From a virus: 43,931 nt of DNA. Positions 5,794 to 43,931 of the stretch are shown in pieces. Position 1 is the first letter of the stretch. Every line of letters begins with the position of its first letter. A program made the translations under genes and the position numbers. Where the stretch lies: IMG/VR virus record IMGVR_UViG_3300009551_000071, positions 1 through 43,931 of that record; one strand, 5' to 3'. A model generated the notes under the pieces. That model was not told the DNA's origin. It was given only the letters and a program-made list of their open reading frames with translations, and made no database searches.

Positions 5794-6012
5794 ATGGAAA
5801 CACTCTCCGAACGAATCCGCGAACTCGGCAGGCGATGCCAGCAGTGCGGCCACGAGTGGATGAAAAAGCCTCATGCGCCAGAACCGGCCCGCTGCCCGAA
5901 TCACTCCTGCAGATCGAAACGCTGGGCGGAACAATCCAGCCCTAAAAACCACGGCACGCTGAAACTCAGCGAACCAGCAAGGGAGACGACGTATGAGCCA
6001 GTCTCTGAGTAG
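5794..6012 (+). CDS. Small zinc-ribbon protein
   Basis: 72 residues. CQQCGHEW and, after a short spacer, CPNHSC form a four-Cys zinc ribbon (about residues 15-40). The tail is unstructured. No Shine-Dalgarno; the -10 box lies 10 nt upstream. It overlaps the glycosyltransferase start by 20 bases. Probably nucleic-acid or protein binding; exact role unknown. Confidence 0.7.
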   Translation: METLSERIRELGRRCQQCGHEWMKKPHAPEPARCPNHSCRSKRWAEQSSPKNHGTLKLSEPARETTYEPVSE

Positions 6013-6886
6013 CCAGCCATCCGTTTGCGCGATCATGCTCACGGCGAACCGGCCTCAGTATGCGAAGCGGGCCGTGGAAGCGTTCAGAGCACAGACCTAC
6101 GCTAATAAACGGCTCTACATCTGTGATACGGGGATCGAGACATGCGGACTGGAGAACCTGTTCTCCGTGCAGATCGGCGTTTTCGATTGCCGTGATGCGC
6201 AACGCAAAGAACCGCGCACGATTGGCGACCTCCGCAACATGGCTGGGCGCAATATCACCAGCGACATTCTTCTGCATTGGGATGACGACGACTACTCGCA
6301 CCCCAACCGAATAGCGGAACAGGTTGCACTCCTGCAATCGAGCGGCGCCGATGTAGTCGGGTATAACGAGCTTTTATTTTGGCGGGAGCCGCAACGCAGC
6401 GTCCATCCGTATGGGACTGGCGGGAGTCCGATTGACATGGGAACGAACCCCGGCGAAGCGTGGCTCTACAGCAGCAAGAACCGGCAATACGCCCTCGGCA
6501 CGAGTTTTTGTATGTGGAGATCCGCATGGCAACGAAAGCCGTTTGAAGCAACATCTATCGGCGAAGATGAGCGATTCTTGCGCGGTCTGAAAGTCGCGGC
6601 GGTTTCGTCGCTTCCGCAAAAGTGCAGCGGATGCTATGAGCGCCAACACCTCGGAATCAAGGGCGAGTGGTGCATGGACTGTCTTGAGCGTGGCTTCAAC
6701 AATCCACGGATGCTGGCCCGCATCCACGGCTCGAACACCAGCACGGCATACCGGGATAGTGAGTTGAGAGTGAAGCCGGAATGGCAGCGGGTACCTGAGT
6801 GGGACAGCTACTGCCGCAGCATTATGTCTGGATTCGTGGATGGCGGCGCGGTCAATCCCGGCACGCCCTACGTGGTGGGCCAATGA
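5993..6886 (+). CDS. GT2-type (GT-A fold) glycosyltransferase
   Basis: 297 residues after a GGGAGA ribosome site. The N-terminus SVCAIMLTANRPQYAKRAVE is the nucleotide-sugar-binding start of family GT2, and LLHWDDDDYSHPNRI (94-108) holds the DxD metal site. GEDERF further on is the typical acceptor-side acidic motif. A C-rich stretch (CSGCYERQH, then CMDCL) near 215-240 may hold zinc. It would transfer a sugar from a nucleotide donor in the cytoplasm. First sugar gene of the island. Donor and acceptor are unknown. Confidence 0.85.
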   Translation: MSQSLSSQPSVCAIMLTANRPQYAKRAVEAFRAQTYANKRLYICDTGIETCGLENLFSVQIGVFDCRDAQRKEPRTIGDLRNMAGRNITSDILLHWDDDDYSHPNRIAEQVALLQSSGADVVGYNELLFWREPQRSVHPYGTGGSPIDMGTNPGEAWLYSSKNRQYALGTSFCMWRSAWQRKPFEATSIGEDERFLRGLKVAAVSSLPQKCSGCYERQHLGIKGEWCMDCLERGFNNPRMLARIHGSNTSTAYRDSELRVKPEWQRVPEWDSYCRSIMSGFVDGGAVNPGTPYVVGQ

Positions 6887-7356
6887 TCGAGCGGCGCACC
6901 CCATTGAAGCGCTCAACGAATCCGATACCGCGCGGCAAGCGTCCGAATGCAAAGAGGCCGGGACCGGCGCGGCGCGGCAGGGTAATTGACAAGCCGTATC
7001 TGGACTACATCCGCCGTCTGCGTTGTATGCTCTGCTATCGGGATTTACTGACCCCGCAAGCTGACGCTGAAAAAGCGGCGCACGGTGAAAAGATTTGGAG
7101 TCCGCGATTCCCTCCGAAATGGCCTTCGGAGGACTGCCACCAACAGACACCAACCGAAGCGGCACATGTTGGAGAACGTGGGCTCGGGCAGAAGTGCAGC
7201 GACCGCGAAACTCTTCCGTTGTGCATGGAGCATCATCGGACTGGGCCGGCGTCCCATCATGTTTTGGGAAAGAAGTTCTGGAAACGATGGGGAATTGATA
7301 GAGATTCTGTCATCGCTGAACTGAACAGGATTTACGAAATGGAGCACGCAAAATGA
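6883..7356 (+). CDS. HNH-type nuclease
   Basis: 157 residues from an ATG overlapping the previous stop (ATGA). CMLCYRD (about 48-54), then EAAHVGERGLGQKCSDRE and LPLCMEHHR: the Cys, His and HH pattern of phage HNH proteins of the DUF968/Ref-like kind. N-terminus is basic (PNAKRPGPARRGR). Phage proteins of this kind are linked to recombination; here it interrupts the sugar genes. Biochemical specificity is inferred from family only. Confidence 0.7.
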   Translation: MIERRTPLKRSTNPIPRGKRPNAKRPGPARRGRVIDKPYLDYIRRLRCMLCYRDLLTPQADAEKAAHGEKIWSPRFPPKWPSEDCHQQTPTEAAHVGERGLGQKCSDRETLPLCMEHHRTGPASHHVLGKKFWKRWGIDRDSVIAELNRIYEMEHAK

Positions 7357-7520
7357 CTCTCGGAATAATCGGTGTCTGGCTTTTGGCCGTCGCGACAATC
7401 GGCGTCAAGGCCTGGCGGAAACGAAACCGCCGGCGCGAAGCCGATCTACTTAAGCGCCACGCGCAGACCAACTACAAGAGCCTCAATTACTGTGAGCCAG
7501 AGGAATGGTGGGTGAAGTGA
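7353..7520 (+). CDS. Small membrane-anchored protein
   Basis: 55 residues in ATGA overlap with the HNH gene. Residues 3-18 (LGIIGVWLLAVATIGV) are one membrane helix followed by a very basic KRNRRRE, giving an N-out orientation. No family recognised. Several similar one-helix micro-proteins lie in this island. Confidence 0.6.
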   Translation: MTLGIIGVWLLAVATIGVKAWRKRNRRREADLLKRHAQTNYKSLNYCEPEEWWVK

Positions 7521-7852
7521 AAACAGAGCACGAAGTTCGCGAGATGAGACGCATGATTGCGCTGCTGGGGAATCCGGGGCCGGAAGCGCTTCGCGCCTTG
7601 GATTGGGTGCTGGATGATTATCCACCCCAGCCACCGGCACCACCTCCCGAATTTGAATGGCGCGGGCTGCGTTACTACCATCGCGGGAACCTGATCGCTA
7701 CGGTATACCTCCGCGACCGCACCGCGCCGCCCGAAAAGATCCGCTGGGATGTTCAGTCCCCGGACGAAAAAATACTTGCCGCGCACTTTGAGACTGAAGC
7801 GGCGGCAAAACAGGCCGTGGAAGAACACGCGCCAGTGTGGGTGTCACGATGA
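7517..7852 (+). CDS. Hypothetical protein
   Basis: 111 residues from GTG 7517 in a 4-base overlap; an ATG at 7505 is also in frame. A proline-rich hinge (YPPQPPAPPPE, about 35-45) separates an N-terminal helix from a small alpha/beta-looking domain. It ends in a 4-base overlap with the next glycosyltransferase-like gene. No family recognised. Confidence 0.6.
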   Translation: MKTEHEVREMRRMIALLGNPGPEALRALDWVLDDYPPQPPAPPPEFEWRGLRYYHRGNLIATVYLRDRTAPPEKIRWDVQSPDEKILAAHFETEAAAKQAVEEHAPVWVSR

Positions 7853-8601
7853 TGCCGCGGAGCTGGTTCTGTATCCCAAGTGCGAGGCCAGTGGATGAAG
7901 TTATTCCCGTCGTAAGGGCGTGGAAAAAAATGGGCTACGGTGTGGCGCTCTGGCGCAATCCCGGCGGCCCCTATCCCGATTGCGATTACCTCCGCGTGGG
8001 TGAGTATCCCGGCTACGCCAAAGCCGTCAACGAACTGGCCGCGACGATCCTGCGAGATCACCCAGAGGTGGACTGGATCTGTTGCGGCGGAGACGACACC
8101 TACCCGGACCCAAACAAAACAGGGGATGAGATCGCCGGGCAACTCATAGCGCATTTCTTTATTCACCACTTCGATATCGGGGCAACCTTCCCGATTGATC
8201 CGTGCATGGGAACTTTCGGTGTGATGCAACCTACCGGCGACCCTTGGGCTGACAACCTCGGCAGGATTATCGAACGGATCGCCGGTTCGCCGTGGCTCGG
8301 TAGAACCTGGTGTGAACGCGCGAATGCGGGGAAAGGCCCACTCTGGCCCGAATTTCGGCACATGTTTGTCGATGAGCATCTGATGCAGTTCGCTCAATCC
8401 CTCGGCGTATTCCTACAGCGGCCGGACCTGACTCACTACCACGCACACGCGCAGCGTATACCCGGCAAAGACGTTTCCGGCAATGCACCACCAGCTCCAC
8501 ACATGAAGGAGTGGAACTCTCAGAAGCACTGGCAGGAATCGAAGGCGATATTTGAACGCCTGAAGTCCACCAACTTTGCGGAGTGCCAGCCGATCCCATG
8601 A
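7849..8601 (+). CDS. Putative GT-A glycosyltransferase
   Basis: 250 residues from ATG 7849 (ATGA overlap). The N-terminal SWFCIPSARPVDEVIPVVRA reads as the start of a GT-A fold, and WICCGGDDTYPDPN (about 75-88) carries the DxD-like metal site. The middle (PTGDPWADN, FVDEHLMQF) resembles acceptor-site segments of phage glycosyltransferases. Soluble, cytoplasmic. It could act on a virion protein or on a lipid-linked glycan. Family by pattern, specificity unknown. Confidence 0.7.
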   Translation: MMPRSWFCIPSARPVDEVIPVVRAWKKMGYGVALWRNPGGPYPDCDYLRVGEYPGYAKAVNELAATILRDHPEVDWICCGGDDTYPDPNKTGDEIAGQLIAHFFIHHFDIGATFPIDPCMGTFGVMQPTGDPWADNLGRIIERIAGSPWLGRTWCERANAGKGPLWPEFRHMFVDEHLMQFAQSLGVFLQRPDLTHYHAHAQRIPGKDVSGNAPPAPHMKEWNSQKHWQESKAIFERLKSTNFAECQPIP

Positions 8602-8714
8602 AGAGACTGCGGAAATGGATAATCGCTGGATGGTGCGAGGAAGAGATTGCAGTTCTCATTGTGCTTTTCGGAATCGCAGCAGTATTGGTATTAGGTAGAT
8701 TTCTGGCGCAATAG
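8598..8714 (+). CDS. 38-residue one-helix membrane protein
   Basis: ATGA overlap with the glycosyltransferase. After a basic start (MKRLRKW) comes a membrane helix at about 17-35 (IAVLIVLFGIAAVLVLG). Its stop lies inside the next promoter region. No family recognised; possibly a membrane tether for the sugar enzymes, but this is a guess. Confidence 0.5.
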   Translation: MKRLRKWIIAGWCEEEIAVLIVLFGIAAVLVLGRFLAQ

Positions 8715-8740
8715 CGTTACAGCGTGGTAAGATAATCCGC
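8710..8740 (+). promoter_or_regulatory. Promoter with tandem 8-bp operator repeats
   Basis: Three adjacent octads AATAGCGT, TACAGCGT, GGTAAGAT (8710-8733). The last contains the -10 TAAGAT (8728-8733), 7 nt before ATG 8741; GATAAT at 8731-8736 is an alternative. No good -35. The same layout occurs at 16169, 38969 and 39388, and with a shifted register at 39686. Confidence 0.6.
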
Positions 8741-9073
8741 ATGGCCAAAGAAAACGAAGATCGAAACGCGGTAAAACTCATCTGCGATCTGCACGCGAAA
8801 GACGGGATACCGGGCATCGGCAAGTTGCCGGAACCGTGGAAGCGCGTTATCAACTCGCAATGGGTCATATGGGTCAACGGGCAGATGACGACACAGAAAG
8901 TTGCGGAAGGCTTCCCCCTGGAGCCGGGTGGCGTCTATGTCGAGTACAACGGATTCCCGGCTGGCTCATTCAACATGATTCATCGCGACGGTGACGAAGC
9001 GATCATGGCCGCTGGCCAGGCCGCGAACTACTCCACGTTCTGTGATGCTCTTGAAGAGGCGATAGCATCGTGA
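8741..9073 (+). CDS. Hypothetical protein
   Basis: 110 residues from ATG 8741, with no ribosome site and a -10 box 7 nt upstream, so likely leaderless. Content is globular (EPWKRVINSQWVIWVNGQ), ending in a helix. It overlaps the next gene by 4 bases. No family recognised. Its own regulated promoter sets it apart from the sugar genes on each side. Confidence 0.65.
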   Translation: MAKENEDRNAVKLICDLHAKDGIPGIGKLPEPWKRVINSQWVIWVNGQMTTQKVAEGFPLEPGGVYVEYNGFPAGSFNMIHRDGDEAIMAAGQAANYSTFCDALEEAIAS

Positions 9074-9312
9074 CCACCGACCAAAAGTTTCTGAAGTCTT
9101 CGGGCATCCGGCCCGACGATCCAAAGGCGGACAACTGGATGGAATGGCGTGCGGACGAGGTAACGCAGTTGCGACTCTCTGTTGCCAAATGGATAAATCA
9201 AGCGGCGTCTCTTGACGCGCTGGCGAAGCGGTGGCGCGTAGTTGCTGTGCTCGGTTGGCTGTTCGCTGGCATGTTGTTTGTCGCTCCACTCATTGAACGG
9301 TGGACACGTTGA
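9070..9312 (+). CDS. Small membrane-anchored protein
   Basis: 80 residues from GTG in a 4-base overlap. Helical N-terminal part, then one membrane helix at about 58-75 (VVAVLGWLFAGMLFVAPL) and a short C-tail. The stop overlaps the TTG of the GDP-mannose dehydratase. No family recognised. Confidence 0.6.
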   Translation: MTTDQKFLKSSGIRPDDPKADNWMEWRADEVTQLRLSVAKWINQAASLDALAKRWRVVAVLGWLFAGMLFVAPLIERWTR

Positions 9313-10274
9313 GAGCGCTTATATCCGGCTGCACCGGGCAGGATGGATCGTATCTTGCCGATCTCCTCCTCTCGAAAGGCTACGAGGTCCACGGCATCAA
9401 ACGCCGAAGCTCCAGCTTCAACACGGCCCGCGTGGATCACCTGATCGACAATCCAAAATTCCATCTGCACTACGCAGACCTGACAGACCCCATGTCGATC
9501 ACGCAAGTCATGGAGCGAGTCAAGCCGGATGAAATCTACAACCTCGGGGCGCAGTCTCATGTCGCGGTCTCATTCGAGATGCCGCGATACACAATGGACT
9601 CCGTGCTCGGGGGAACACACGCGATGCTCGAAGCGATGCGGCAGTGCGTGCCAAATGCGCGGTTCTATCAGGCCAGCTCATCCGAGATGTTTGGCAACTC
9701 CCCGGCGCCGCAATCGGAAACCACGCCGTTCGCCCCGCGGTCTCCCTACGGAGTCGCGAAGGTCGCAGCGCATCATATGGCGGTCAATTACCGGGAATCC
9801 TATGGACTCCATGTTAGTTGCGGGTTACTCTTTAATCACGAATCTAACCGCAGGGGTGAAACTTTTGTAACACGGAAGATCAGCATGGCGGTGGCGCGAA
9901 TCAAAGCGGGTGAGCAGGACTTCGTTACGCTCGGGAACTTGGAAGCGCAGCGCGACTGGGGCTGGGCTCCTGAGTACGTGGAAGCCATGTGGCGGATGCT
10001 CCAATGGGGAAGTCCGCGAGACTTTGTTATCGGTACGGGTGTAACTGAAAACGTCCGAAACTTCGCGGCGATGACGTTCGGTTCGGTCGGTCTGGACTGG
10101 CGGCAATTCGTGAAGTACGACGCGCGGTACGAGCGGCCGGCTGAAGTTCATATCCTGAAAGCTAACCCGGCAAAGGCACTTGCCGAACTCAACTGGCAAT
10201 CCGAAACGTCGGTATCTGAGATTGCACGACGGATGGTGGCTGCTGACATGGAGGCGTTGAAATGCGGGAAGTGA
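9309..10274 (+). CDS. gmd: GDP-mannose 4,6-dehydratase
   Basis: 321 residues from TTG 9309 (TTGA overlap; GTG 9300 is an alternative). The family start ALISGCTGQDGSYLA is the NAD(P)-binding GxxGxxG loop; HYADLTD, SSSEMFG and SPYGVAK follow, with catalytic Tyr147 and Lys151 of the extended SDR family. It converts GDP-D-mannose to GDP-4-keto-6-deoxymannose in the cytoplasm. Slightly shorter than bacterial Gmd, but all motifs are present. The next gene performs the following step. Confidence 0.93.
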   Translation: MRALISGCTGQDGSYLADLLLSKGYEVHGIKRRSSSFNTARVDHLIDNPKFHLHYADLTDPMSITQVMERVKPDEIYNLGAQSHVAVSFEMPRYTMDSVLGGTHAMLEAMRQCVPNARFYQASSSEMFGNSPAPQSETTPFAPRSPYGVAKVAAHHMAVNYRESYGLHVSCGLLFNHESNRRGETFVTRKISMAVARIKAGEQDFVTLGNLEAQRDWGWAPEYVEAMWRMLQWGSPRDFVIGTGVTENVRNFAAMTFGSVGLDWRQFVKYDARYERPAEVHILKANPAKALAELNWQSETSVSEIARRMVAADMEALKCGK

Positions 10275-11188
10275 TCCTCGGACACAGGGGTATGGTGGGG
10301 TCAGCGCTGAGGCGCGTATTGCCGGAAGCGATGTTCGTAGATGGATCGGTCGATCTGCGTTATCAATACGAACTGTCAGAGTACTTGTGGCCATTCAACC
10401 CGGAGCATCCTCGCGTCGGTGGTCCGATCGACGTCCTGTACCTATGCGCGGCCCGCGTGGGCGGCATCCAGCGCAACATCGACGAACCCGGCTCGATGAT
10501 CTACGACAACCTGATGATTCAGGCGAATGTAATCGAAGCGGCACGGCTCGCTGGCGTGAAGCTGATTGTATTCCTCGGATCGAGTTGCATTTACCCGGCG
10601 CGCGGCGCGATTCTATCTGAACAGGACCTGATGACCGGCCCGCTGGAGCCCACAAACGAACCCTACGCAATCGCCAAGATCGCGGGAATCAAGATGCTGG
10701 AAGCCTACCACCGGCAGTACGGCATGGAATACCTGGCGGTGATGCCCTGCAACCTGTACGGCCCCGGTGACAACTTCGACCCGCAAACTTCGCACTTCAT
10801 TCCTGGAATGATCCGCAAGTTCCACGATGCGAAAGTATCCGGCGCGGAATCGGTTACACTTTGGGGAACCGGGACGCCACGGCGAGAGGTCATGCACGTC
10901 GACGACTGCGCGCGCATAATCGTGGAACTGGTGCGGCAGGGCGCACGCGGCCTGATTAACATCGGTCCCGGCGTCGATCACACGTTAGATTTCTACGCGG
11001 ACTGCGTCGCATCGGTCGTTGGGTTCGCTGGAAAAACAATTATCTGGGATAACTCAAAGCCGGATGGCGTGATGCGCAAGCTGATGGATGTGTCGCGAAT
11101 GCGCGGATACGGGATTGAGCCCGCGATTCATTCGATGGCCGGCATCCGGTCCACTTACGAATGGTTCCTGAAAAACGAGGCGAAATGA
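10262..11188 (+). CDS. fcl: GDP-L-fucose synthase
   Basis: 308 residues, overlapping gmd by 13 bases. GHRGMVG (7-13) is the cofactor loop. S107 and C109 in GSSCIYP, Y135 and K139 in PYAIAK, and H178 in SHFIPGMIRKF match the catalytic residues of Escherichia coli GDP-fucose synthase (Ser107, Cys109, Tyr136, Lys140, His179). WGTGTPRREVMHVDD is the usual C-terminal motif. It epimerises and reduces the Gmd product to GDP-L-fucose using NADPH. With gmd it gives a full two-step pathway from host GDP-mannose. Confidence 0.93.
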   Translation: MREVILGHRGMVGSALRRVLPEAMFVDGSVDLRYQYELSEYLWPFNPEHPRVGGPIDVLYLCAARVGGIQRNIDEPGSMIYDNLMIQANVIEAARLAGVKLIVFLGSSCIYPARGAILSEQDLMTGPLEPTNEPYAIAKIAGIKMLEAYHRQYGMEYLAVMPCNLYGPGDNFDPQTSHFIPGMIRKFHDAKVSGAESVTLWGTGTPRREVMHVDDCARIIVELVRQGARGLINIGPGVDHTLDFYADCVASVVGFAGKTIIWDNSKPDGVMRKLMDVSRMRGYGIEPAIHSMAGIRSTYEWFLKNEAK

Positions 11189-11787
11189 CAGACACATCGC
11201 AGTACAAAGAAGGCACTTTCATCTGCGAACACTTCGCCGGGAGGCTCGGCAGGTTTCTGGACATCGGAAGTTACGACGGAAAGCAACTCAGCAATACGTG
11301 GCCACTCTCGCAACTCGGCTGGTCCGGGGTCTGCGTAGAGCCTTCCCCGCTACCCTTCGCTGGACTGATGCGGAACTACGAAGGCAATGCCGACGTCATC
11401 CTTGTGAACGCGGCTCTGACATTCGGACCCAAGCGCATCATGCAGTTCTTCAGCACCGGAGATGCTCTCAGCACTTCACAAATTGAGCACCGTAGGCGCT
11501 TCGCAGAATATCCGTTCACCAGCATCCTGATTCCCGGAGGGATCGGCTGGGACGAACTGCTGGCGGCCGTTGACTACGGGGACGGCGTGGCACCGTTCAG
11601 CTTCGTAAACATCGACGTGGAGGGCCGGAACGCCGCGCTATTGGAAGTGATGCCGATCCGGCCGGAAATGATCTGCGTGGAGTACGACCCGGAAGCGGAC
11701 GGAATAGAGACGGTTCACAACATCCTGAAGGGATGGGGATACAAGATCACGGTGATTGGCGGGAATGTGCTGGGGGTGAGAGATTGA
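11185..11787 (+). CDS. FkbM-family methyltransferase
   Basis: 200 residues from ATG 11185 (ATGA overlap). RFLDIGSYDGKQLSNTW is the SAM-binding motif I, GVCVEPSP the acidic motif II, and FVNIDVEGRNAALLEVM the characteristic FkbM segment. Family members O-methylate sugars or polyketides. Context suggests methylation of a glycan sugar such as fucose. A second FkbM gene follows at 12871. Substrate is inferred. Confidence 0.82.
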   Translation: MTDTSQYKEGTFICEHFAGRLGRFLDIGSYDGKQLSNTWPLSQLGWSGVCVEPSPLPFAGLMRNYEGNADVILVNAALTFGPKRIMQFFSTGDALSTSQIEHRRRFAEYPFTSILIPGGIGWDELLAAVDYGDGVAPFSFVNIDVEGRNAALLEVMPIRPEMICVEYDPEADGIETVHNILKGWGYKITVIGGNVLGVRD

Positions 11788-11930
11788 CGGAAGCAATCCT
11801 GATTGAGATCGCGCAGCGGTTCCGCAAATTAGAGGACCAGCAAGCCGTTCTCCTGACATTCGTTAAAGAGTGTGAGCGGAACAAGTGGTGGCCTAATCGT
11901 CGCAAGCGTGATGACGAAAGCTCAGATTGA
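11784..11930 (+). CDS. 48-residue hypothetical protein
   Basis: TTG start in TTGA overlap. One helix (EAILIEIAQRFRKLEDQQAV) and a basic, Trp-containing tail. No family recognised. The next gene starts close after it. Confidence 0.5.
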   Translation: MTEAILIEIAQRFRKLEDQQAVLLTFVKECERNKWWPNRRKRDDESSD

Positions 11931-11967
11931 AAAGGGGATGGTCCCTAGAAAAGGCTTTGACAACCAA

Positions 11968-12717
11968 ATGAAGGTGATTATCACTACCGTAGCTCATGGC
12001 GGACATTACCCGAGAGCGGCAGCAAGAATGATAGAAAGATTCAACTCCGCATCTCCGGGATACGAAATTCAAGCGTGGGTTAACTGTTATCCGCCAGGAT
12101 CTCCGGGTGACGTTGTTGTGAACGATTGGAATTTCGGCCCGTATTGCGCAAAACCATTCGCTCTCGAATACGCGCGGCAGTGCGGGGCCGACGTCGCAAT
12201 CCTCTTGGACGCATCTTTCTTCCCCTGCCGGCCGATTCAACCGCTGGTGGAGCACATCCAGCGCAACGGGTACTACCTGTGCCGGAACGGGTTCAATGTG
12301 GGAGAGTGGACCTCGGACGCGGCTCTCGAATTCTTCGGCGTATCGCGCGATGCCTCTTTCGAGATGGATGAAATTTCGAGTTACTGTGTGGGCGTGGATC
12401 TCAATCACCAGCAAGCGTTAGACTGCGTGCTTCACTGGCCATCCTCTACGCCATCGTTTCCCGGCCCGCACACTGCAACCGGACAACCGGGACGAAACCC
12501 CGGCTTCGTATCGACGGACCCGCGCGTAAAGGGCCACAGGCACGATCAATCGGCACTGTCGATCATCGCCAACCGGCTGGGCATGGACCGGCTGTCGGAG
12601 CGCCCGTTTCTGACGGCGTACCACCTCGGGTATGGCGGCCTGTTTCCGAACGAAAACACAGTGCTGGTGAACCACGGAGTTATCGAAGGATGGACGGAGG
12701 GGAAAGACCTGAAATGA
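11968..12717 (+). CDS. Putative glycosyltransferase
   Basis: 249 residues from ATG 11968, chosen because the domain begins directly there (MKVIITTVAHGGHYPRAA); in-frame ATGs at 11938 (after AAAAGGGG) and 11911 are alternatives. ADVAILLDASFFPCRPI (about 73-89) fits the metal-site strand of a GT-A fold with DAS in place of DxD, and KGHRHDQSALSIIANRLGM near 190 is a motif seen in several glycosyltransferase families. Likely soluble. Donor could be GDP-fucose given the neighbours. Confidence 0.68.
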   Translation: MKVIITTVAHGGHYPRAAARMIERFNSASPGYEIQAWVNCYPPGSPGDVVVNDWNFGPYCAKPFALEYARQCGADVAILLDASFFPCRPIQPLVEHIQRNGYYLCRNGFNVGEWTSDAALEFFGVSRDASFEMDEISSYCVGVDLNHQQALDCVLHWPSSTPSFPGPHTATGQPGRNPGFVSTDPRVKGHRHDQSALSIIANRLGMDRLSERPFLTAYHLGYGGLFPNENTVLVNHGVIEGWTEGKDLK

Positions 12718-12881
12718 GCATGATCGAAGCGTTCGGCCATACGAATCAATGCACTATCTGGATATGCGAAGGGTGCCACCAACACCTGAAGGATCACGAC
12801 TGGAGCCCGCGCGAAGCCAGCAACAAGCCGGTATTTATCGCCGGGCCGTGCAACTGCGGAGGCCGCAAGGATGGCAACTGA
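12714..12881 (+). CDS. Small zinc-binding protein
   Basis: 55 residues, ATGA overlap. CTIWICEGCHQH and CNCGG offer four to five Cys plus His ligands, so a small zinc knuckle is likely. Overlaps the next gene by 11 bases. Family unknown. Confidence 0.6.
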   Translation: MSMIEAFGHTNQCTIWICEGCHQHLKDHDWSPREASNKPVFIAGPCNCGGRKDGN

Positions 12882-13512
12882 ACAGGAACAAGCGGCGGTA
12901 ATCCGCGCACTCAGCGCTCACGTGCCGCTGACCGTGATTGATCTCGGCTCTCACCACGCGGACGAATACGATTGGATCTCCCGCGCCTTCGGACCGCTCT
13001 CTATCTGGCATTACATCGCGGTCGAAGCGGACCCGAGAAACGCGGCGGTAATTCGCCAACGTCCACTCGGGAAGCATGAGCCATTCACGCTGATAGAAGC
13101 CGCAATCGCTTCATTCAATGGAACGACAACCCTGCACCTGTGCGACAACACAGCGGATCAGGCGAAGGGCTCCAGCTCGATCCACAAGCCGACCGGGCAT
13201 CTGGAGCACTTTCCGTGGTGCACATTCGACGCATCCGTCGAGGTCGTGGCCGTGACGCTGGACCACCTTGTCAGCAACCAATTGACGCCGGATATCCCGA
13301 TAGACCTGTTGTGGGTGGATATCCAGGGCGCGGAAAAGGACATGATTGCGGGCGGGCACGAAGCGCTGAAGCGCACGCGCTACATCATGATCGAAGCGGA
13401 GAGCGTGGAACTTTACGAAGGCCAGGCGCTCAAGCCGGAACTGCTGGCGCTGCTGCCGGATTTCGAGGTAGTTGAGGATTTCGGGTACAACCTGTTTTTA
13501 CGGAGGAAATAA
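12871..13512 (+). CDS. FkbM-family methyltransferase (second copy)
   Basis: 213 residues. TVIDLGSHHADEYDWI (21-36) is motif I, HYIAVEADPRNAAVI motif II, and LLWVDIQGAEKDMIAGG the FkbM hallmark. It shares fold and motifs with the protein at 11185 but is clearly diverged. Presumably methylates another position or sugar of the same glycan. SAM-dependent, cytoplasmic. Stop overlaps the next start by one base. Confidence 0.85.
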   Translation: MATEQEQAAVIRALSAHVPLTVIDLGSHHADEYDWISRAFGPLSIWHYIAVEADPRNAAVIRQRPLGKHEPFTLIEAAIASFNGTTTLHLCDNTADQAKGSSSIHKPTGHLEHFPWCTFDASVEVVAVTLDHLVSNQLTPDIPIDLLWVDIQGAEKDMIAGGHEALKRTRYIMIEAESVELYEGQALKPELLALLPDFEVVEDFGYNLFLRRK

Positions 13513-13718
13513 TGCAACTGACAGAAGAGCATTATCGACAAGCGGAAGTCGCCTACAACGGTTACTGCAAACAGACCGGATGGAAGTCTCTGGCGACCGG
13601 AGATCAATTGCCACCATTTGAAGGATTGCGTCCAGCAATCAAAGACGCATGGGCGGCCGCGTGCATCGCTCTTGCGCTTGACAATGACATGCGGGCTCGG
13701 CGCGCCACCCAAGTCTGA
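13512..13718 (+). CDS. 68-residue hypothetical protein
   Basis: Preceded by GGAGG, so translated from a conventional site. Helical, ending AWAAACIALALDNDMRARR. The arrangement W-K-x-LATGDQLPPFEGL resembles small phage proteins of unknown function. No role can be given. Confidence 0.6.
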   Translation: MQLTEEHYRQAEVAYNGYCKQTGWKSLATGDQLPPFEGLRPAIKDAWAAACIALALDNDMRARRATQV

Positions 13719-13721
13719 ACT

Positions 13722-14444
13722 ATGCGCTACCGATCCAATCTTGAACCGCCCGACATGAGCGGTTTCACACTCCATAGCCCTGTCCTGCAAAACTGCGGGC
13801 ACGACTGCCCGTCAGATCCGGACTTCGATCCCGGCTGCACGTTCATGACAGAGGACGAAATCGCCATCCTCTACGCCACCCTGCACGGCCCGCACCTTAA
13901 CCGCAAAACAACCGTAGAGATCGGCTCACGGTTCGGATGGACCGCAAAGGCAATCAATGGGGCAACCGGAGGCTGCGTGCTTTGCGTGGACCCGATTCTG
14001 AAGTACGGCTCCCCGGAGCAACAGCGCTTCAAGGAGAACCTCGGCCCGGCATTCGGCTCCGTGATAGCAATCCCCAGGACTTCCGAGGTGTTCTTTCGCG
14101 ACCGTCACCTTGAAAGCACGCGGAGCCACTACAGTGCGTTCGTGATTGACGGCAACCATGAAGACATCCAGCCGACGAACGACTGCAAGGGGGCGCTCTC
14201 GCTGGCCACGGAAGACTGCATTGTGATCCTGCACGATGCCCGCGGATTGCCAGTGTGTCGGGCTGCCGAGTTTCTGATGGAGCAGGGTTTCCGGGTGCGG
14301 TTCTACGTGACGCCTAACGGCGTGTTCGTGGCGTGGCGCGGATTTGAGGGATGGGAACCGCCGGCGCACGATCCTGACCCGAAGCTGGTAGAGCCGATAA
14401 TGCGGCAGATGAGAGGGCAGATGGAAATGGGGATGATGAGTTAG
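13722..14444 (+). CDS. Class I SAM-dependent methyltransferase
   Basis: 240 residues. TTVEIGSRFGWTAKAI is motif I and VLCVDPILKYGS motif II; AFVIDGNHEDIQP followed by an acidic region fits the Methyltransf_24 type. CGHDCPSDPDFDPGC near the N-terminus may bind a metal. Third methyltransferase of the island, not FkbM. Substrate unknown; a sugar or peptide group is plausible from context. Confidence 0.75.
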   Translation: MRYRSNLEPPDMSGFTLHSPVLQNCGHDCPSDPDFDPGCTFMTEDEIAILYATLHGPHLNRKTTVEIGSRFGWTAKAINGATGGCVLCVDPILKYGSPEQQRFKENLGPAFGSVIAIPRTSEVFFRDRHLESTRSHYSAFVIDGNHEDIQPTNDCKGALSLATEDCIVILHDARGLPVCRAAEFLMEQGFRVRFYVTPNGVFVAWRGFEGWEPPAHDPDPKLVEPIMRQMRGQMEMGMMS

Positions 14445-14650
14445 TGCCTGATCCCGGTTTTGAGCAAGTAGAAATCAAAGGTATGCCGACGGTGCGCGAA
14501 CAGATCGACATGATAAACGCGCTGGCTGAGGCCGCAATCGTGGCGGAAAGAATTGATCCTGAAATATCCGGCAAGCAATGCGCCGCCGCCTTGGCCCGCG
14601 CCTGTGATCTTGTAACGAAGCCAATACTTAGAATTGAGACTGGCAAATGA
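14444..14650 (+). CDS. 68-residue hypothetical protein
   Basis: GTG start one base into the previous stop. Mostly helical (TVREQIDMINALAEAAIVAE). ATGA overlap with the next glycosyltransferase, so co-translated. Family unknown. Confidence 0.55.
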   Translation: MPDPGFEQVEIKGMPTVREQIDMINALAEAAIVAERIDPEISGKQCAAALARACDLVTKPILRIETGK

Positions 14651-15534
14651 TCGTCGCCACAATGCCCGTTCGTAATGAAGATTGGATTTTGGCTTTGAGC
14701 CTCCGTGCTCTCCTGCGATGGGTAGACGCCGTTTGCGTTCTGGACCATTGCTCCACAGACAAGACACGCCAAATCATCTCAGAGATCGGCTCAGAGCACC
14801 CCGGCAGAGTATCCGTGCTCTACGAAGATTCACCCGTCTGGGAGGAGATGCGGCACCGGCAAAGGTTGCTGGACCGGGCTCGGGAACTCGGCGCCACGCA
14901 CATTGCGATTGTGGACGCGGACGAGGTTTTATCGGGTGACCTCCTGCCGACCATCCGAGACATGGTGTATGCCTGCCCAAAAAACGCCACCATGCAGTTG
15001 CCGTGGCTCTGCCTGCGGGATTCACACCTCCAGGTACACCGGAGCGGCGTATGGGGCGAACAGAGCGCAAGCATGGCGTTCGTGGATTCGCCGGAATTGC
15101 ACTGGTCCAGCGCGGGGCGGGGGACATATGACCATCACCACCGGCCGCCGATGGGAAGGCCATACAGCGCATACAATCCCGTGACAGGGCGCGGCTCGGG
15201 GCTGATGCACCTTCAATTTTCTTCCCGCACTCGCCTGAACGCAAAACAATTTTGGTATGTCTGCTCAGAGCTGTCGCGATGGCCCGGCCGCGAGACACCC
15301 GCACAGGTCCGCGAAAAGTACTCCCTTGCGGTCTACGGCCACAAGAACCCGGCAAGCGCACCGCCTCATGACCTGATGCCGACGCCTGACGCCTGGTGGG
15401 CACCGTATGCCGATCTGATGCATCATTACCGGCCCAACGCGGAGCCGTGGCAACTGAAGGCCGCGCGGGAGATCGTAGCGGCGCACCCGGGCATGGACTT
15501 CGGCGGGGATGACTTCGGGACGCATATCCTGTAA
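14647..15534 (+). CDS. GT2-family glycosyltransferase
   Basis: 295 residues. IVATMPVRNEDWILALSLRA is the typical start, LDHCSTDKT the donor loop and IAIVDADEVL (about 87-96) the DxD-type metal site. The C-terminal half is His- and Trp-rich (TYDHHHRPPMG). Related in style to Glyco_tranf_2_4 proteins. Soluble; no membrane helix. The downstream radical SAM gene begins 4 bases after its stop. Confidence 0.82.
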   Translation: MIVATMPVRNEDWILALSLRALLRWVDAVCVLDHCSTDKTRQIISEIGSEHPGRVSVLYEDSPVWEEMRHRQRLLDRARELGATHIAIVDADEVLSGDLLPTIRDMVYACPKNATMQLPWLCLRDSHLQVHRSGVWGEQSASMAFVDSPELHWSSAGRGTYDHHHRPPMGRPYSAYNPVTGRGSGLMHLQFSSRTRLNAKQFWYVCSELSRWPGRETPAQVREKYSLAVYGHKNPASAPPHDLMPTPDAWWAPYADLMHHYRPNAEPWQLKAAREIVAAHPGMDFGGDDFGTHIL

Positions 15535-32167: not shown

Positions 32168-34141
32168 ATGGCACGTGAATCAGCGGGTGCAATCTATGTC
32201 TCGATCGACGGCGACAACTCACCATTGCTGGCGAAGTATGCACAGACAGAAGCTCAGAGCCGGGCCGCCGGGCAGCGGATCGCTCAGGGGCTCGGGGCCG
32301 GGTTCCAGCAGGGTACTGGGCTGGTGGATCAGTTCGGGCGCACGGTCCAGTCCACCGTCCCGCCGTTGGTTGAGGCGACCGAAGCGACGGAAGCGCTCGG
32401 GGCGGCAAGCGCCCACACGGTCACGGAGATTCAGGCCATGTCGGGCGCTCTCCGCACGCTCGACGGCAACGGCGGTATCCGTGCCGCGGAGCGGTTTCTG
32501 GCTACCACCTTGGGGCTGGGTGGCGCGGTACAGGCACTCTTCCCAATTATCGGATTGATTGCCGTTGCCGAGTTGCTGGACAAGGTGATCAGCAAGTTCT
32601 CCAAAGCTCATGACCAGAGCGAAGAATTCACCCAGGCGCTGAAGTCCACAGAACAGGCCGCGCGTGGGCTGGTGAACACGCTGGACGACATCAACGTAGA
32701 CAAGATGCGTGATGCCTTTGGGGGAGCTGCGGGGGAGCGCATGCGGGCGGCTGTGCTCGAAATGCAGTCCTTCGACAAGCTCACTGAAGCGGCTGGAAAA
32801 CGCGCTCTCATCAAATCAGCCGGCGAGAACGAAAACTGGATCACGACGGTATTCGGAAAGCCAACGGACATCGCGGCGGTCAAACAGCAGATTGAGCAAC
32901 TGTCCCTTGAATCTCAGGCCCTCGCCGCGCAAGCGGACGAAGCCCGGCGCCACGCGAACGAAGTCACCGGACCCCATGAAGCGCAGGAGGCCGCACGCAA
33001 GGCGGAAGAGGAACGGAAACGGCAGTCCGCCGAACTGAAGCGCGAACAGGAAGAGGCCGCACGGCAGGCCCGGGTCATTATCGAAGGCGTTCGCATTGCG
33101 CGGCGCGAATCCGCTGCCGAAGAAAAGAATCTGATTCGTGAGAACAAAGATGAATTGATGCGCGGGCTGGAAGAAACCAGCCGGGAGTTTGAAAACGATG
33201 AGCGCAATCGCCGGGCTGAAATCGTAGCCGAAACAGCAGCACGGAACCGGGCCAATGAAGAATCCATCCGCGCGGGCGGCGTGCGGCAGGGTTCGGCGGA
33301 TGAAATAGCGCGGCTTCAGGTTGAGCAAACCTATGCGCTCCAGTTGTCCCACACGCGGGCCGAAGAACTTCAGTACGTCAAAGACATCGCGGCATCCGAA
33401 GAGCTGGCACTCCAGCACAAGATAGACGCACTGCAAACGCTGAAGGATTACCAGACACAGAATCTGCTTTACGACGAAGCAAACCGGACGGATCTGGAGG
33501 TGGAGCGGGCGAAAGCGGCTCTCCGAAAGCAGCAGATGGAGGATGCTATGCGCATAGCGACCGCACGGCGCGGGACGCAGATCGGAGCGGGGCTGACTGG
33601 AATCGCGGCTGGTGTGCCGGGACAACTCGGCGGCGCACTCGCAAGCGGCATAACGGGCGGTAACATCGGCCAACAGATCAAACAGGCACTGACCGGCATC
33701 GGAAAGGAAATGATGGGCGACGTTTTCAAAGACCTGATTGCGTCGATCCTCGGCAATTCTCTGGTGACGTTGGCGAACACAGCCAGCGTGGAATTGAATA
33801 CCTTCTGGCTGGCAATCAAAAGCTTTGTCGGTGGGATATTCGGCTTCGCTTCGGGCGGCAGACCTCCGGTAGGCGTCCCGTCTATCGTCGGGGAGCGCGG
33901 GCCGGAACTCTTCATACCTGACGGCCCCGGGCTCATCATCCCCAACACGATGACGCAGAATCTTCTCTCTGGACCATCCGCGAATCTCCTGACAGCCAGC
34001 ATGATCAGCAACTCAAATTCAAGCTCACTCTCGATTGGGTCGTTGCATCTGCACGGGGTTCAGAGTGTGGAGCAGTTCGCGCGGCGGCTCCCGAACGTGC
34101 TGAAGTCGCGGGCGCCCAACTTCTCACCAGCCTCACGGTAA
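32168..34141 (+). CDS. Tape measure protein
   Basis: 657 residues. Long coiled-coil centre (EAARKAEEERKRQSAELKRE), hydrophobic stretches near 115-135 and 515-540, and a C-terminal GFASGGRPPVGVPSIVGERG (about 557-576), which is a common tape-measure ending. Its length sets tail length; at roughly 1.5 angstrom per residue this implies a tail near 100 nm. It may also form the DNA channel in the inner membrane. Confidence 0.9.
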   Translation: MARESAGAIYVSIDGDNSPLLAKYAQTEAQSRAAGQRIAQGLGAGFQQGTGLVDQFGRTVQSTVPPLVEATEATEALGAASAHTVTEIQAMSGALRTLDGNGGIRAAERFLATTLGLGGAVQALFPIIGLIAVAELLDKVISKFSKAHDQSEEFTQALKSTEQAARGLVNTLDDINVDKMRDAFGGAAGERMRAAVLEMQSFDKLTEAAGKRALIKSAGENENWITTVFGKPTDIAAVKQQIEQLSLESQALAAQADEARRHANEVTGPHEAQEAARKAEEERKRQSAELKREQEEAARQARVIIEGVRIARRESAAEEKNLIRENKDELMRGLEETSREFENDERNRRAEIVAETAARNRANEESIRAGGVRQGSADEIARLQVEQTYALQLSHTRAEELQYVKDIAASEELALQHKIDALQTLKDYQTQNLLYDEANRTDLEVERAKAALRKQQMEDAMRIATARRGTQIGAGLTGIAAGVPGQLGGALASGITGGNIGQQIKQALTGIGKEMMGDVFKDLIASILGNSLVTLANTASVELNTFWLAIKSFVGGIFGFASGGRPPVGVPSIVGERGPELFIPDGPGLIIPNTMTQNLLSGPSANLLTASMISNSNSSSLSIGSLHLHGVQSVEQFARRLPNVLKSRAPNFSPASR

Positions 34142-34147
34142 ACAGAA

Positions 34148-37100
34148 ATGGCCTGGAACACCCTCACCTCCGAAGCATCGCTCAAAACCTTCGACAGCCG
34201 TGCGCTGTCACCGGGCAACTATTCCGCGCACATGGAGTGGGCGAACTCGGCAGTGATAAATCAGGGCGTCATGGTGGCGCTGTCGAACGCAGGCCGGGTG
34301 GTTCAGAGCATAACGAATTCGCACACAGACGGCGGCGGATTCACGACATGGACAATCACACTTCCAGATGATAATGCGGCGGGTAATGCTCTTGTGCTTG
34401 ATATGTGGTTCAACGCGGGCACGGCCATTGCTGGCCCCGTGACCGTGAGCGACAGAAACGGCAACACCTGGACCAACGAGGTACTGTCTCACCCAGCATT
34501 TCAGGGCCAGTTCGCTGGAATATTCGTTGCTCTCGGTATTGCGGCCGGCCCAAACACAGTAACAATCACGATGGGGGGGGATCATCCGTTCACGGATCTC
34601 GCCGTGGCCTTGCACGAATACCCCGGCGCAACGGCCGTGCAATCCAGCGTCTACGGATGCGGTGGACTGTTTGGTACGGGAAGCCCTGTAGACGTCACTT
34701 TGACCTCAACCGGCAGCGCAGTGCTTCATCTGGCCGTGGCTCCCGAAACCGCTCTGACTCTGGTGAGTGGCGGTGGATTCGTGGGATGCACTCCAGCGTG
34801 GCTCATGATCTACGAGGGGGAGCCTGCCGAGGCGAATGCCTGGGTAGATCAATCCCATCGCCTGCATGTCTCGGAGTCCATCTCGATCTCATGGATTGTG
34901 CGGCAGCGCGGAACCGCGAAAGTCCCGCTGATAATCAGCGGCGACGACGATTACATGCCTACCATCGGCTCTCAGGTCTGCCTCTGGGACATCACCGAAA
35001 CCGATGACTTTGAGGTATTCAGCGGGACGATTGACGATCTTGAGGTGAAGTGGTTCGGTCAGGATGGGACTAAGGTTGTCACACTCACATGTGTTTCGCT
35101 GGAGCAGGTCTTCGATACGATCCGGCTGCCAAATCTCCTGTTCGAGAACAAAACGGCGGGATTCATTTTCACTACGCTGTTCGCCTATGCTGCCGGATCT
35201 CCAGTAACACTCGGAACCGTGGATGCGGGCGCGACAATCGCCAATTTCGCTATCTCGGATTTCCCGTCAATCAGCGATGCGTTTACGCGGCTGGCTACGC
35301 TCTCGGAGTACGTCTGGGGCGTGGACCCAGGAACCGGCGCGGCTTACTTCACGCCGCCGAATACAGCACCTTCCCCGTTCACGCTTGCGGCCACGGATGT
35401 ACTGTGGGAGCAGTTCACTTTCAAAGAAGAGCGGCACGATTACCGGAACTGGCAAGCAATCAAGATCCCCGATAACGTGGCCGTTCAGTCAAAGGAATAT
35501 TTCGACGGAGCCGGGCAGTCGAATTTCACGACACTGCGGCCGATCGCGCAGATCACAAATGCGTGGCTCACGCAAAACACGGCGAATATCGCAATCGGAA
35601 CTTTCACTGGGCAGCCGTCGCCGGGAGACACCATCTCTTTCGGATTCACTTCGGGCTGGACCGCAAGCGCGGCGATCGGGATGGATCAAATTATCGTCGA
35701 TGGCAACGGCTACGCGCAGAAATGCACGGTGCCGGGAACCACGGGATTAACAGAGCCTTCCTGGGTGGAGCTGTACGGCGAATTCACGACGGACAACACG
35801 GTCCAGTGGCAGAATCAGGGCATCGCCGGTTTCGGATCGGGGCTTGTCGCCGCCTACACCTTCGTGACGGCGCTGGACAATACGCAGTTCGGCCAGGTTC
35901 TCATCGGGGCGAACCTTGCGGCGACGATTCAGAATCTCGCGGATGCCATCAACTCAATTCAGGCACAGGCCGGAATTACATTCTCGCTGCCCACGTGGGA
36001 AAACCCGGAAGTCAATGCGGACGAGCCGCCGACCTCAACGCAGATCACCGTCCGAAGCAAGCCTGTGGGCGCCGGGTTCGTGACGGCCGTCAGCGAGTCT
36101 TGTGCCAACTTCTCGTGGGACCGGGCCAACACGAGCGGTGGGGTGACGACATTCGGTACCGATGTGATCACGTTTGGAGTCCGCGGGCAGACCGCCGGCG
36201 GACCGATCTTCACGATTGTCTATACGCCGGGCAGTAATATCATTTCGAGCGCAACTCCACTGGACGTGGGCAACCGTCTGGCAGTTCAGTATCAGGCTTC
36301 TGACGCTGGATATATTCGCGTGGAAAATTCAGACGATGTGGCGCAGCGCGCATTGATAGAAAGCGGGACCGGAAAGTATCAACAGACCTCGAGCGACGAT
36401 CAGGCATTGACATTGCCGGAAGCTCTGCAGCTCGCGCAACAGCAGCTCGCGGCCTTCGGGGTGATCCCGCAGACCTTCCAATTTACTACGATGCGGGCGG
36501 GGCTCTACGTGGGCCAGGTGCTGGCAATTTCGATGGACAATCCGGTAGGGCTCAATGCGATCCTCGGAGCCGGTCCAGCTGGCCCGACCGACTATACGGC
36601 GACCCAAGTTCCAACCGGAGGCACGGAGCCGTGGGGTATCTGCTACGACGGCAACGGCCACGTGTGGAGTTGTGACACCGTAGCCGGCGCAATCCTGAAA
36701 ATAGACGTTGCAACGCAGACGGTGATAGATACGGTTGCAATCCCCGGGGGCGATGCGCGGGGATGCTGCTACGACGCAGGAACCAATACCGTCTGGGCTG
36801 TTTGCAATGGCGGGGACACGGTGACAAAGATCGATGCCACCTCGGATGCAATCATCGGAACCTATGCGATCGGCAGCGGCGGAACGGGATTGATCTCGGA
36901 CGGCACGCGCATATGGATCTGCAATCACAACGACAATACGGTCACGGTTCTATTAGCCGCGGATGGGAGTCTGGTGGCGACGGTCGGGGTTGGCGGCGGC
37001 CCGAATGATATCTGTTTCGATGGAACGAATCTATGGACCGTCAACCAAGGCGGAAACAGCGTCACGAAGATCACGGCGAGTACCCAGGCGGTTGTGGGAA

Positions 37101-37936
37101 CCTACACGGTCGGAAACCAGCCCACCGGCATAGCGTTCGACGGGACGGATATATGGGTGACTGACGGCGGATACACAACTACATTTCTACAATCGCTCGA
37201 ACGGATCAACGCCGGGACCGGATCAGTGTCAAACACCTACGCGCTAGGCGACGATGGCACGCTGGATTCATTCGCGGGGCTGGCGTGGGATTCCTCGACA
37301 GGGATTCTCTGGATGTGCAACGCACGCGGAGGCCCGGGAAACAATCTGATCTATGCGGTAGATGTTTCCACCGGGACGATTGCCGCGACTTACGACGGAT
37401 ACCCGGGTGGCGCGCCTTTCCTTGTGTGCATCGCGGGTACTTCAGTCTGGGCATCGAATAACAATTTCGGTTTCCTGACGGAACTGATTCCCGCACAGGG
37501 CACAAGCTGGTTCATTCAGGAGATTCAGGCGGAAGTGGTCCCAGTGTACGGCGAGAATGGGGAATCAAATCGCTGGCTCCCGGGCGGAGGTCATTTCCGC
37601 TACACGGTGACGTGCATCGATGTGGCGCAGATCGGCTCATGGATTGATTTCTGGCTCGGGCTGGGCGGTGGATCTTCATCCGGCGGCGGTTCGTTCTCTG
37701 GCTCGGGTGCCCTCGGGCCGGGAGGTGGCGGCGGCAGTTCCTACTCGCAGACCTTTACCGGCGTCACCACGCTGACAGTTACGCATGGACTTAACACGGA
37801 GAACGTGGTGGTATCGGTCTACGACGGCAGCGGGAATATGATTATCCCGTCGAGTGTGCAGATCACCGGAGCAAACACAGTGGATCTGGTGTTTGGAGTG
37901 GCGACGGATGGCAGAGTAGTGGTGCTGGGAGGCTAA
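34148..37936 (+). CDS. Large tail protein with inserted seven-bladed beta-propeller
   Basis: 1262 residues. About 1-800 is a tail/baseplate-hub type protein ([20 protein letters not shown], then [20 protein letters not shown]). [19 protein letters not shown] near 785 and [17 protein letters not shown] near 1118 normally adjoin in such proteins; between them lie about 300 residues with seven repeats of the YncE/NHL type (for example [37 protein letters not shown]). The C-terminus is Gly/Ser-rich and ends in a small beta domain ([20 protein letters not shown]). Likely tip protein with a displayed binding domain. Confidence 0.8.
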
Positions 37937-37941
37937 GACGA

Positions 37942-38973
37942 ATGACGAAACGAGAGCGCAGTTTTGGGATGCTGATTTTCGCTGTGATATTCGCGGCGTG
38001 CCTTTGGTCCGCAGTTGTCAATGGATGGCTGGATTTCACTCAGATGACCGCGCCCAGCGCGCCGGGAAGCGGATACGGGCGCGTCTACGTGTCCAGCGGA
38101 GCAAGTGGATTGCTCGGGTGCAAGCTGCCCAGCGGACTGAGTTGCATGCCAACATCAACCGGAGCGACAGGGCCGACAGGCGCAACGGGTCCGACTGGGG
38201 CCACGGGAGCCACGGGGGTTACGGGTGCCACTGGTCCCACGGGAGCTACCGGAGTCACTGGGGCGACCGGCGCTACGGGGACAACAGGTGCGACGGGGGC
38301 AACCGGAGCGACAGGGTCTTCGATCACGCTCCAGACCAATGGGACAAACAACGGCTCTCAGTCAGTGCTGAATCTCAAAGCCGGAACAAACATGACGCTG
38401 ACTGATAACGGCTCAGGTCAGATCACATTCGACGCGGCGGGGGGCGGCGGGGGCGGTGGGCTAACTCAATTGGCGCAAACCACGGTTGCGGGAAGCTCGA
38501 CCAACTCGATCACATTTTCCACGATTTCAGGGTCGTATTCCAATCTTGAGATTTGGGTTATGGCGCGCTCCGATCTGGCATCTAATCATCTGGCCACGAT
38601 GTACATACAATTCAACACCGACACAGCCGCGCATTACAATCACTCCGTTATCTATGCTGGCGGTTCAGGCGTGGGACAGTTCAATTCAACGTCCACGGCG
38701 CAACCTGAAATTTTCAACATACCGGCTGCGAGTGCCAGTGCGAACGTAGCTGCTGGAGTGGTGATTTACATCCCAGCCTACGCAGGTACGACATTTTACA
38801 AGAATGCGACTGCTCCGGGGTACACTCCGGATTTTTCCAGCGGTCAGGTTGTCGCTCTTGAAAACGCTCAATGGTCCTCCACGGCGGCTGTTACGTCGGT
38901 TACGCTGGGGCTTCAAAATGCTACCGCGCACTTTGTGGCCGGATCAGTATTCACGCTCTACGGGCTACAGTAA
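37942..38973 (+). CDS. Collagen-like tail fibre protein
   Basis: 343 residues. N-terminal hydrophobic segment 8-29 ([20 protein letters not shown]) may be a membrane anchor or fibre attachment helix. Residues 74-125 are 17 Gly-X-Thr triplets, mostly GAT and GPT, giving a collagen-like triple helix with Thr always in the third place. A glycine run (about 168-174) and a 170-residue beta domain follow, probably the receptor-binding tip. In Bacillus BclA, Thr of such triplets carries glycans. The last structural gene of the long late operon. Confidence 0.8.
38161..38316 (+). repeat. Collagen-like Gly-X-Thr coding repeat
   Basis: Seventeen 9-bp units encoding Gly-(Ala/Pro/Val/Thr)-Thr plus a final Gly. 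Third bases vary widely (GGA GCG ACA, GGG CCG ACA, GGG GCC ACG), so the repeat is kept at protein rather than DNA level. Confidence 0.9.
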
Positions 38974-43154: not shown

Positions 43155-43781
43155 ATGAGCAAAACACTGAAAACGGTAAACGCGCTCTTGATCGGATTCG
43201 GGCGCAAGAAAGATTCTTCCGGCTGGGCGCGGGTGAAGTTCCAACTGACAGCCGCTGTCACGAAATCTCTCGGCTGGCCCGATATGCCGGAAGGCACGGC
43301 GGAATGGATTCCCGACGTCGATACCCTGAAAGCGTCCGTGGTGGAGTTGACGCCGAACGCGCCGGAACTCGCGAAACATGCGATGGAATTCGACTGCCAG
43401 ACGATTGGCGATTTCATGGTCCAGCGCAAGAAAAAGAAGGCGGGAAAGAACTCCGTCAAAGCGGACAAGACCGTGACGGAGGTCGCCTGCCTGATTACGT
43501 TCGCGGACCCGCTGGGTTGCGCCAAGTTGGAGCAATACAAGCTATCCGCCGCGCGGTCAGAAATGACGGTGACCTACACGCCGGAACCGACGCAGGACGA
43601 ATTGCCGGGCACGCGGGTAGACGTGGTATCCGGTGAAGTCCACGCAACGAAAGAGCAGCGGCAAGCGCAGATGGAAATCACCGAAGTAAACCCGGCACCG
43701 ACGGCGGCCGAAAAAAAGAAACAGCGCGAAGTTGAGCGCGAGAAAATGGCGGAACTCCGCAAGCGGATTGAAAAGAAGTGA
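43155..43781 (+). CDS. Hypothetical early protein upstream of RusA
   Basis: 208 residues with GGAGG upstream. N-terminal beta-rich domain (ARVKFQLTAAVTKSLGWPDM), then a basic KKKKAG segment and a long charged C-terminal helix (KKKQREVEREKMAELRKRIE). Its stop overlaps the RusA GTG. The place suggests a role in recombination, but no recombinase motif is visible. Confidence 0.6.
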   Translation: MSKTLKTVNALLIGFGRKKDSSGWARVKFQLTAAVTKSLGWPDMPEGTAEWIPDVDTLKASVVELTPNAPELAKHAMEFDCQTIGDFMVQRKKKKAGKNSVKADKTVTEVACLITFADPLGCAKLEQYKLSAARSEMTVTYTPEPTQDELPGTRVDVVSGEVHATKEQRQAQMEITEVNPAPTAAEKKKQREVEREKMAELRKRIEKK

Positions 43782-43931
43782 CGATCACGGTTTACGGTCT
43801 GCCAGCTCCACAGGGATCGAAGCGGGCCTTCGTGCTCAAAGGAACCAACCGCGCTGTGATGGTGGAATCGTCCAAAAACGTCAAGCCGTGGCGCGCGGCG
43901 GTACAAGCCGAGGTGCTGGCCCTGTTCCCCA
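43778..43931 (+). CDS. rusA: RusA-family resolvase, N-terminal part (continues at window start)
   Basis: GTG start in GTGA overlap with the preceding gene. TVYGLPAPQGSKRAF is the RusA family N-terminus (GxPxPQxSKR), followed by a basic helix (KNVKPWRAAVQ). The frame runs off the window after 51 codons plus one base, and the base joins bases 1-2 of the window to make Asn52. Together both parts give a normal 145-residue enzyme. Confidence 0.92.
   Translation, partial: MTITVYGLPAPQGSKRAFVLKGTNRAVMVESSKNVKPWRAAVQAEVLALFP

Follow-up and report, generated by a model that had tools for sequence, protein, structure and literature searches.

We consider it likely that a gp27-like tail hub has recently gained a beta-propeller as an adhesion module, with which the tail tip would bind a glycan or a protein of the host surface. 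The hub gene lies in a stretch of 43,931 bases (hereafter the window), which is a whole virus record, and the phage is probably a tailed one with a long non-contractile tail. Up to now, the gain of host-binding parts without breakage of the tail has mostly been deduced from distant comparisons. In the present case, two phages whose hubs are 96% identical differ by one clean module of 319 residues, so that its place, age, and effect are directly testable.

The Tail Hub Gene and Its Neighbors

The tail hub gene (34148–37936, 1262 aa) is open throughout in one unbroken frame and lies directly 3′ of a probable tape-measure gene; the hub gene, its parts, and both of its neighbors are on the plus strand. 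The protein starts with an N-terminal accessory domain (residues 1–235; 34148–34852) that is common to the sister phage L002 (IMGVR_UViG_3300026041_000005) and differs in the relatives L076, L099, and L056; among these four relatives, the N-terminal domains differ completely. The first part of the hub core (residues 236–478; 34853–35581) was delimited with the hub family HMM and the model, and it is followed by a first accessory insertion of about 190–195 residues (approximate limits 35582–36166). This insertion has low confidence in the AlphaFold2 model and is common to the window, L002, L056, L065, and the close relatives L076–L088. According to the alignment to the family, the second part of the hub core (36167–36544) ends in a 14-residue strand at the insertion point, and the last part (37502–37669) begins with an 11-residue strand, where the hub restarts. 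Between them lies the inserted seven-bladed propeller (36545–37501; residues ~800–1118, ~319 residues), which was recognized by HMM, structure match, and empty-site comparison. A Gly/Ser-rich linker and a small C-terminal domain (37670–37936) with a PHROG match to phrog_21918, a family with no function assigned, complete the protein.

The upstream gene (32168–34141, 657 aa) has weak PHROG matches only, and from its position and a C-terminal VGERGPELFIP-type motif we take it to be a probable tape-measure gene. On the other side, a collagen-like fiber protein, found by domain and PHROG matches, adjoins the hub gene (37942–38973); its identity to the counterpart in the sister phage is 56%, compared with 96% for the hub.

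Elsewhere in the window, a set of sugar genes spans 5993–15534. It includes a GDP-mannose 4,6-dehydratase (9300–10274, E=3e-124), a second epimerase (10262–11188), and glycosyltransferases (5993–6886 and 14647–15534), and it may glycosylate virion parts or change the host surface. In addition, the two ends of the window (1–323 and 43779–43931) match stretches of the sister phage only 15 bases apart; the window may therefore represent an entire genome, circularly permuted. The relatives of the portal protein were distant and spread over several hosts, and no host was identified from them.

Hub Family and Fold

To gather the hub family, we aligned vir515 (an archaeal-virus relative), L008, and L002 and used this alignment to scan IMG/VR. 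The hub HMM, whose input included the 96% identical L002 protein, matched the window protein in two domains that flank the insert (E=9.8e-170 and 3.1e-17). In addition, vir515 matched the baseplate hub family phrog_196 (E=4e-4). L013, a family member with no inserts, was modeled at pLDDT 83.5, and the model matched the 43 kDa tail protein of MuSo2 (E=3.7e-14) and also the Mu hub, VgrG, the phage 80alpha baseplate, and T4 gp27. The gp27/Mu gp44-like fold was thus seen in L013 and passed to the window protein by alignment, and on this basis the ORF is assigned as a gp27-like (Tal-type) tail hub. The initial annotation, which was made from the letters of the window alone, had called the product a tail tip protein with a hub-like domain, and the fold of L013 agrees with this.

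Several members of the family carry further domains. For instance, a hub of 1703 aa (L050:783-5891) has an insert of ~980 residues with a match to 3keto-disac_hyd (3-keto-disaccharide hydrolase-like), L036 has a Laminin_G_3 domain upstream of the hub part, L085 has a pectate-lyase-like domain downstream of it, and in L081 an early loop of the hub holds an insert of 215 residues (ORF residues about 163–378). The close outgroup hub L076 has an unrelated N-terminal domain of ~450 aa (L076:498-1850) with an Asp-box-like STDGGATW motif. This domain had no match in Pfam or PHROGs, and the motif suggests that it may be a sialidase-type propeller. In L008, L031, and L033, the hub is divided into two ORFs ~1 kb apart.

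Sequence and Predicted Structure of the Propeller

The inserted segment begins with an entry linker of 23 residues (36545–36613), which includes a probable closing strand read from the sequence. The blades were delimited by the repeats and the model: blade 1 starts at residue 823 (44 residues; 36614–36745), blade 2 at residue 867 (42 residues; 36746–36871), blade 3 at residue 909 (40 residues; 36872–36991), blade 4 at residue 949 (40 residues; 36992–37111), blade 5 at residue 989 (50 residues; 37112–37261), blade 6 at residue 1039 (48 residues; 37262–37405), and the partial blade 7 at residue 1087 (32 residues; 37406–37501).

The NCBIfam repeat model TIGR02276 (beta_rpt_yvtn) matched with 40.8 bits against a curated cut-off of 27.85 (E=1.6e-10), and with E=5e-13 when the propeller segment was searched alone. 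The closest solved structure by sequence was 1l0q (E=8e-19), an archaeal S-layer YVTN propeller. It has the same repeat family and fold, but it is a cell-surface protein of an archaeon and no phage tail part.

These searches also bear on whether the propeller is an enzyme (a glycan lyase, lactonase-like protein, or esterase) that breaks down a polymer of the host surface and is not a binder. Several propeller families are enzymes, the L085 hub of the same family has its pectate-lyase-like domain, and streptococcal phage Tals bear lysin modules inside the gp27-like domain (PMC9437275). However, no enzymatic family exceeded its cut-off in the window propeller: the Pfam families NHL, SGL, and YNCE (PF21783; 12.5 bits vs. 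a cut-off of 27.1) were sub-threshold, Lactonase (PF10282) gave no match, and the top matches were TIGR02276 and 1l0q. An enzymatic role seems unlikely to us.

AlphaFold2 was run on residues 236–1189 together with 22 relatives, and the overall pLDDT was 61. Over the propeller, the alignment contained the window row only, so the propeller was modeled from its own sequence alone. In the model, six blades are complete with four strands each, and the seventh has two strands. The pLDDT of the blades is mostly 50–89 (mostly 76–89 for blades 1–4 and lower for the later ones), and the seventh blade and the entry linker, including its presumed ring-closing segment, were modeled only at low confidence. 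In a Foldseek search, the top PDB match was again 1l0q (E=2.6e-18), and all listed matches of the window model were propellers; seven-bladed WD40 domains were matched with TM up to 0.82 (rmsd 2.3 over 293 columns). As modeled, the inserted segment is a YVTN/YncE seven-bladed propeller.

The initial annotation had placed seven repeats of YncE/NHL type at 36600–37500, read them as a seven-bladed propeller, and named structure prediction as a check. The model does contain a propeller there, in agreement with the TIGR02276 and 1l0q matches. Of the proposed repeat type, the YVTN/YncE-like part can be kept, and the NHL label was rejected because its match is below threshold. The limits also change slightly, to a wider interval that is set by DNA homology and given below.

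Insertion Point and Empty Site

The hub of L002 consists of 950 aa, has 85% DNA identity to the window, and bears an 11-residue loop, DNPSPSLTNADWF, at the insertion site. DNA homology between the window and L002 ends at 36543 and restarts at 37507. The corresponding points in L002 (8396 and 8421) are only 24 bp apart, and the limits of the insert by DNA homology are 36544–37506. On the L013 model, the alignment places the insert between strand 380–385 and strand 390–405, after helix 345–359. The slot is in the last hub subdomain, assigned by the order of the subdomains along the chain and not by coordinate superposition. The pseudo-hexameric ring with which Tal proteins stack on Dit is built from their subdomains 1 and 4 (PMC9437275). 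The insert marks this turn in the ring subdomain as a place that tolerates a large insertion. Two earlier proposals, that the propeller sits in a loop of the hub-like domain and that its flanking segments are normally side by side, are both confirmed by L002, the first also by the strands of L013.

The empty site is the rule in the family. Among the 45 hubs that cover the site, 44 have 5–15 residues there (several of these 44 are near-duplicates), compared with 326 in the window. Two more scans added about eleven close relatives, each from a separate contig, and all of them are without a propeller at the site. Thus, an ordinary part of the family, a reading that the initial annotation proposed to check by comparison with relatives, was rejected: the layout is absent from L002 and all other sampled relatives. 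An assembly chimera was also rejected, because the insert is present in the same form in a second contig, IMGVR_UViG_3300025924_000107, with 99.98% identity over 15.8 kb.

In the hub-core tree, the window and L002 were paired at 100/100, L076 and L099 came next, and the terminal branch of the window was 0.011. A deletion in L002 rather than a gain in the window is unlikely, as the outgroups L076 and L099 also have no propeller. Since L002 and both outgroups are empty and the branch is short, the propeller appears to have been gained recently in the window lineage, most simply on its short terminal branch once L002 had split off.

The same comparison speaks about a structural role, in which the propeller would be a spacer or stabilizer that reinforces or seals the tip by packing on neighboring tip proteins. 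Some phage propellers are indeed structural and not adhesive, such as those of the T7 and SU10 nozzles (PMC9509320, PMC10607447). However, the sister phage, in which the rest of the hub is 96% identical, and every sampled relative manage without the propeller, and therefore it should have no essential role in the tip. We regard a structural part as rather improbable.

Only 58% of the window aligns to the sister phage, and many non-tail genes differ too. Thus, the difference between the tip proteins of the sisters is no specific evidence of a host switch.

Origin of the Propeller

The nearest propeller that we found is inside a 1578-aa protein (L095) of the phage contig IMGVR_UViG_3300028654_000012, with 38% identity over 259 residues, and the two propellers have a 14-residue motif in common. 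The L095 propeller sits among tail-fiber-type repeats and not in a hub. The next one is a separate propeller protein of 612 aa in the same phage, located beside tail-fiber genes (34% identity). In this phage of 117 kb, related propeller repeats occur in at least four large ORFs (L093, L094, and L095). In another contig, IMGVR_UViG_3300014325_000012 (L073:5269-7107), a YVTN propeller of ~300 residues is inserted in one of three tandem paralogs, and the other two are without it. In addition, a 1336-aa protein of phage G006 (L096:3362-7372) has propeller repeats at its N terminus (PF10282, E=4e-20), which seem to make up two propellers. It looked hub-like by eye, but profile tests gave no match, and we do not claim it as a hub.

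The initial annotation had suggested that the module was acquired from a bacterium. Plasmid-borne bacterial propellers, among the matches listed, have 24–31% identity, which is lower than the two phage propellers above. Bacterial chromosomes were scanned with exact patterns (for the hub and for two blades), a kind of scan that is weak for repeats, and gave nothing. Among INPHARED phages, a propeller match was never better than E=0.7. On these matches, with chromosomes poorly sampled, a phage donor appears no less likely than a bacterial one, and the proposed bacterial origin is not supported. Furthermore, no foreign composition was seen: the GC content of the insert is 0.588 compared with 0.584 for the genome, and its codon distance is at the 18th percentile.

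It is also conceivable that the propeller has no function and entered the loop by chance, as a passenger that is neutral to selection and was tolerated there. The propeller is present in one lineage only, and the very short branch leaves little time for selection. However, the ORF is intact, the seven blades are well kept, the codon use is typical of the genome, and similar propellers are inserts in, or neighbors of, other phage structural proteins. A functionless insert is therefore quite improbable in our opinion.

More tentatively, YVTN propellers could be adhesion cassettes that are passed from phage to phage and settle in loops of structural proteins with no kinship to each other (a hub, a long fiber, and a tandem-repeated protein). 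The turn in the last hub subdomain would then be one permissive slot, and the window and its sister would be a before/after pair. We give this wider picture a fair chance, though a less than even one.

Proposed Function in Adhesion

An adhesion role is most likely for the propeller, as judged by its position and fold, the fiber context of its relatives, the lectin-like domains on sister hubs, and the analogy with CBM-decorated Dit proteins, which bind the host (PMC7291167). The nearest propellers are in tail-fiber contexts of another phage, other hubs of the family bear lectin-like or lyase-like domains (L036, L050, and L085), and the neighboring fiber, too, differs strongly from one sister to the other. 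In addition, the propeller of the phi11 receptor-binding protein (RBP) is the proposed holder of a GlcNAc site (PMC4901313).

We propose that, after the split from the closest known relative, the lineage gained a complete propeller of about 319 residues, which would have taken the place of a short turn between two neighboring strands of the last hub subdomain. Because its entry and exit are side by side, the propeller could ride on a hairpin and leave the hub fold unbroken. The hub is expected to be trimeric, so three propellers would probably stand around the tip and would be displayed outward. They may bind a host surface glycan or protein, and adsorption would then become stronger or be redirected, beside the collagen-like fiber.

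Comparison with Known Systems

Decorated hub and Dit proteins, gp27-like domains that contain lysin modules, and phage receptor-binding proteins with propellers are already known. The evolved Dit/Tal proteins of siphophages (PMC7291167) resemble the window hub in that an extra module is in a loop of a conserved tip protein and its presence varies among lineages. As in an evolved Tal, the module of the window is inside a gp27-like domain and missing from relatives. However, the evolved Dit/Tal modules are CBMs that are displayed from the tip and have demonstrated binding, whereas the window has a seven-bladed propeller for which outward display and binding are predicted. We do not class the window hub as an evolved Tal proper, because the fold of its module is not a CBM beta-sandwich.

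The Tal proteins of the streptococcal phages SW13 and TP-778L (PMC9437275) also have domains within the gp27-like hub, and these modules are predicted to point outward from the axis of the trimer. They are two lysin modules that lie, on linkers of ~40 residues, between subdomains 3 and 4, whereas the window has one propeller with a shorter linker inside the last subdomain (by order). In lambda gpJ, the HDIV insert (PMC10721106) is likewise a domain between two neighboring strands of the last hub domain, but it is a beta-sandwich of 87 residues and not a propeller; when the window slot was mapped onto gpJ by sequence, there was no usable alignment to the hub family.

Host-facing propellers that are proposed receptor binders include those of phi11 RBP (five-bladed), PRD1 P2, and PhiKZ gp131C (seven-bladed) (PMC4901313). 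These are separate receptor-binding or peripheral baseplate proteins, whereas the propeller of the window is inserted in a hub loop. A propeller RBP of phi11 type, with five blades after a coiled-coil stem, was rejected, since the window has seven blades within the hub domain. The fiber-like protein L095 has an internal propeller as in the window, but between fiber-type repeats and not in a hub.

In a limited literature search, we found no propeller inside a hub ring subdomain, and the papers on siphophage adhesion devices among its matches did not contain the word "propeller". What is new here is the type of module, its site inside the hub ring subdomain, and a natural pair with and without it. 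Propellers thus join CBMs, lysins, and Ig-like domains on the short list of modules that decorate gp27-like hubs.
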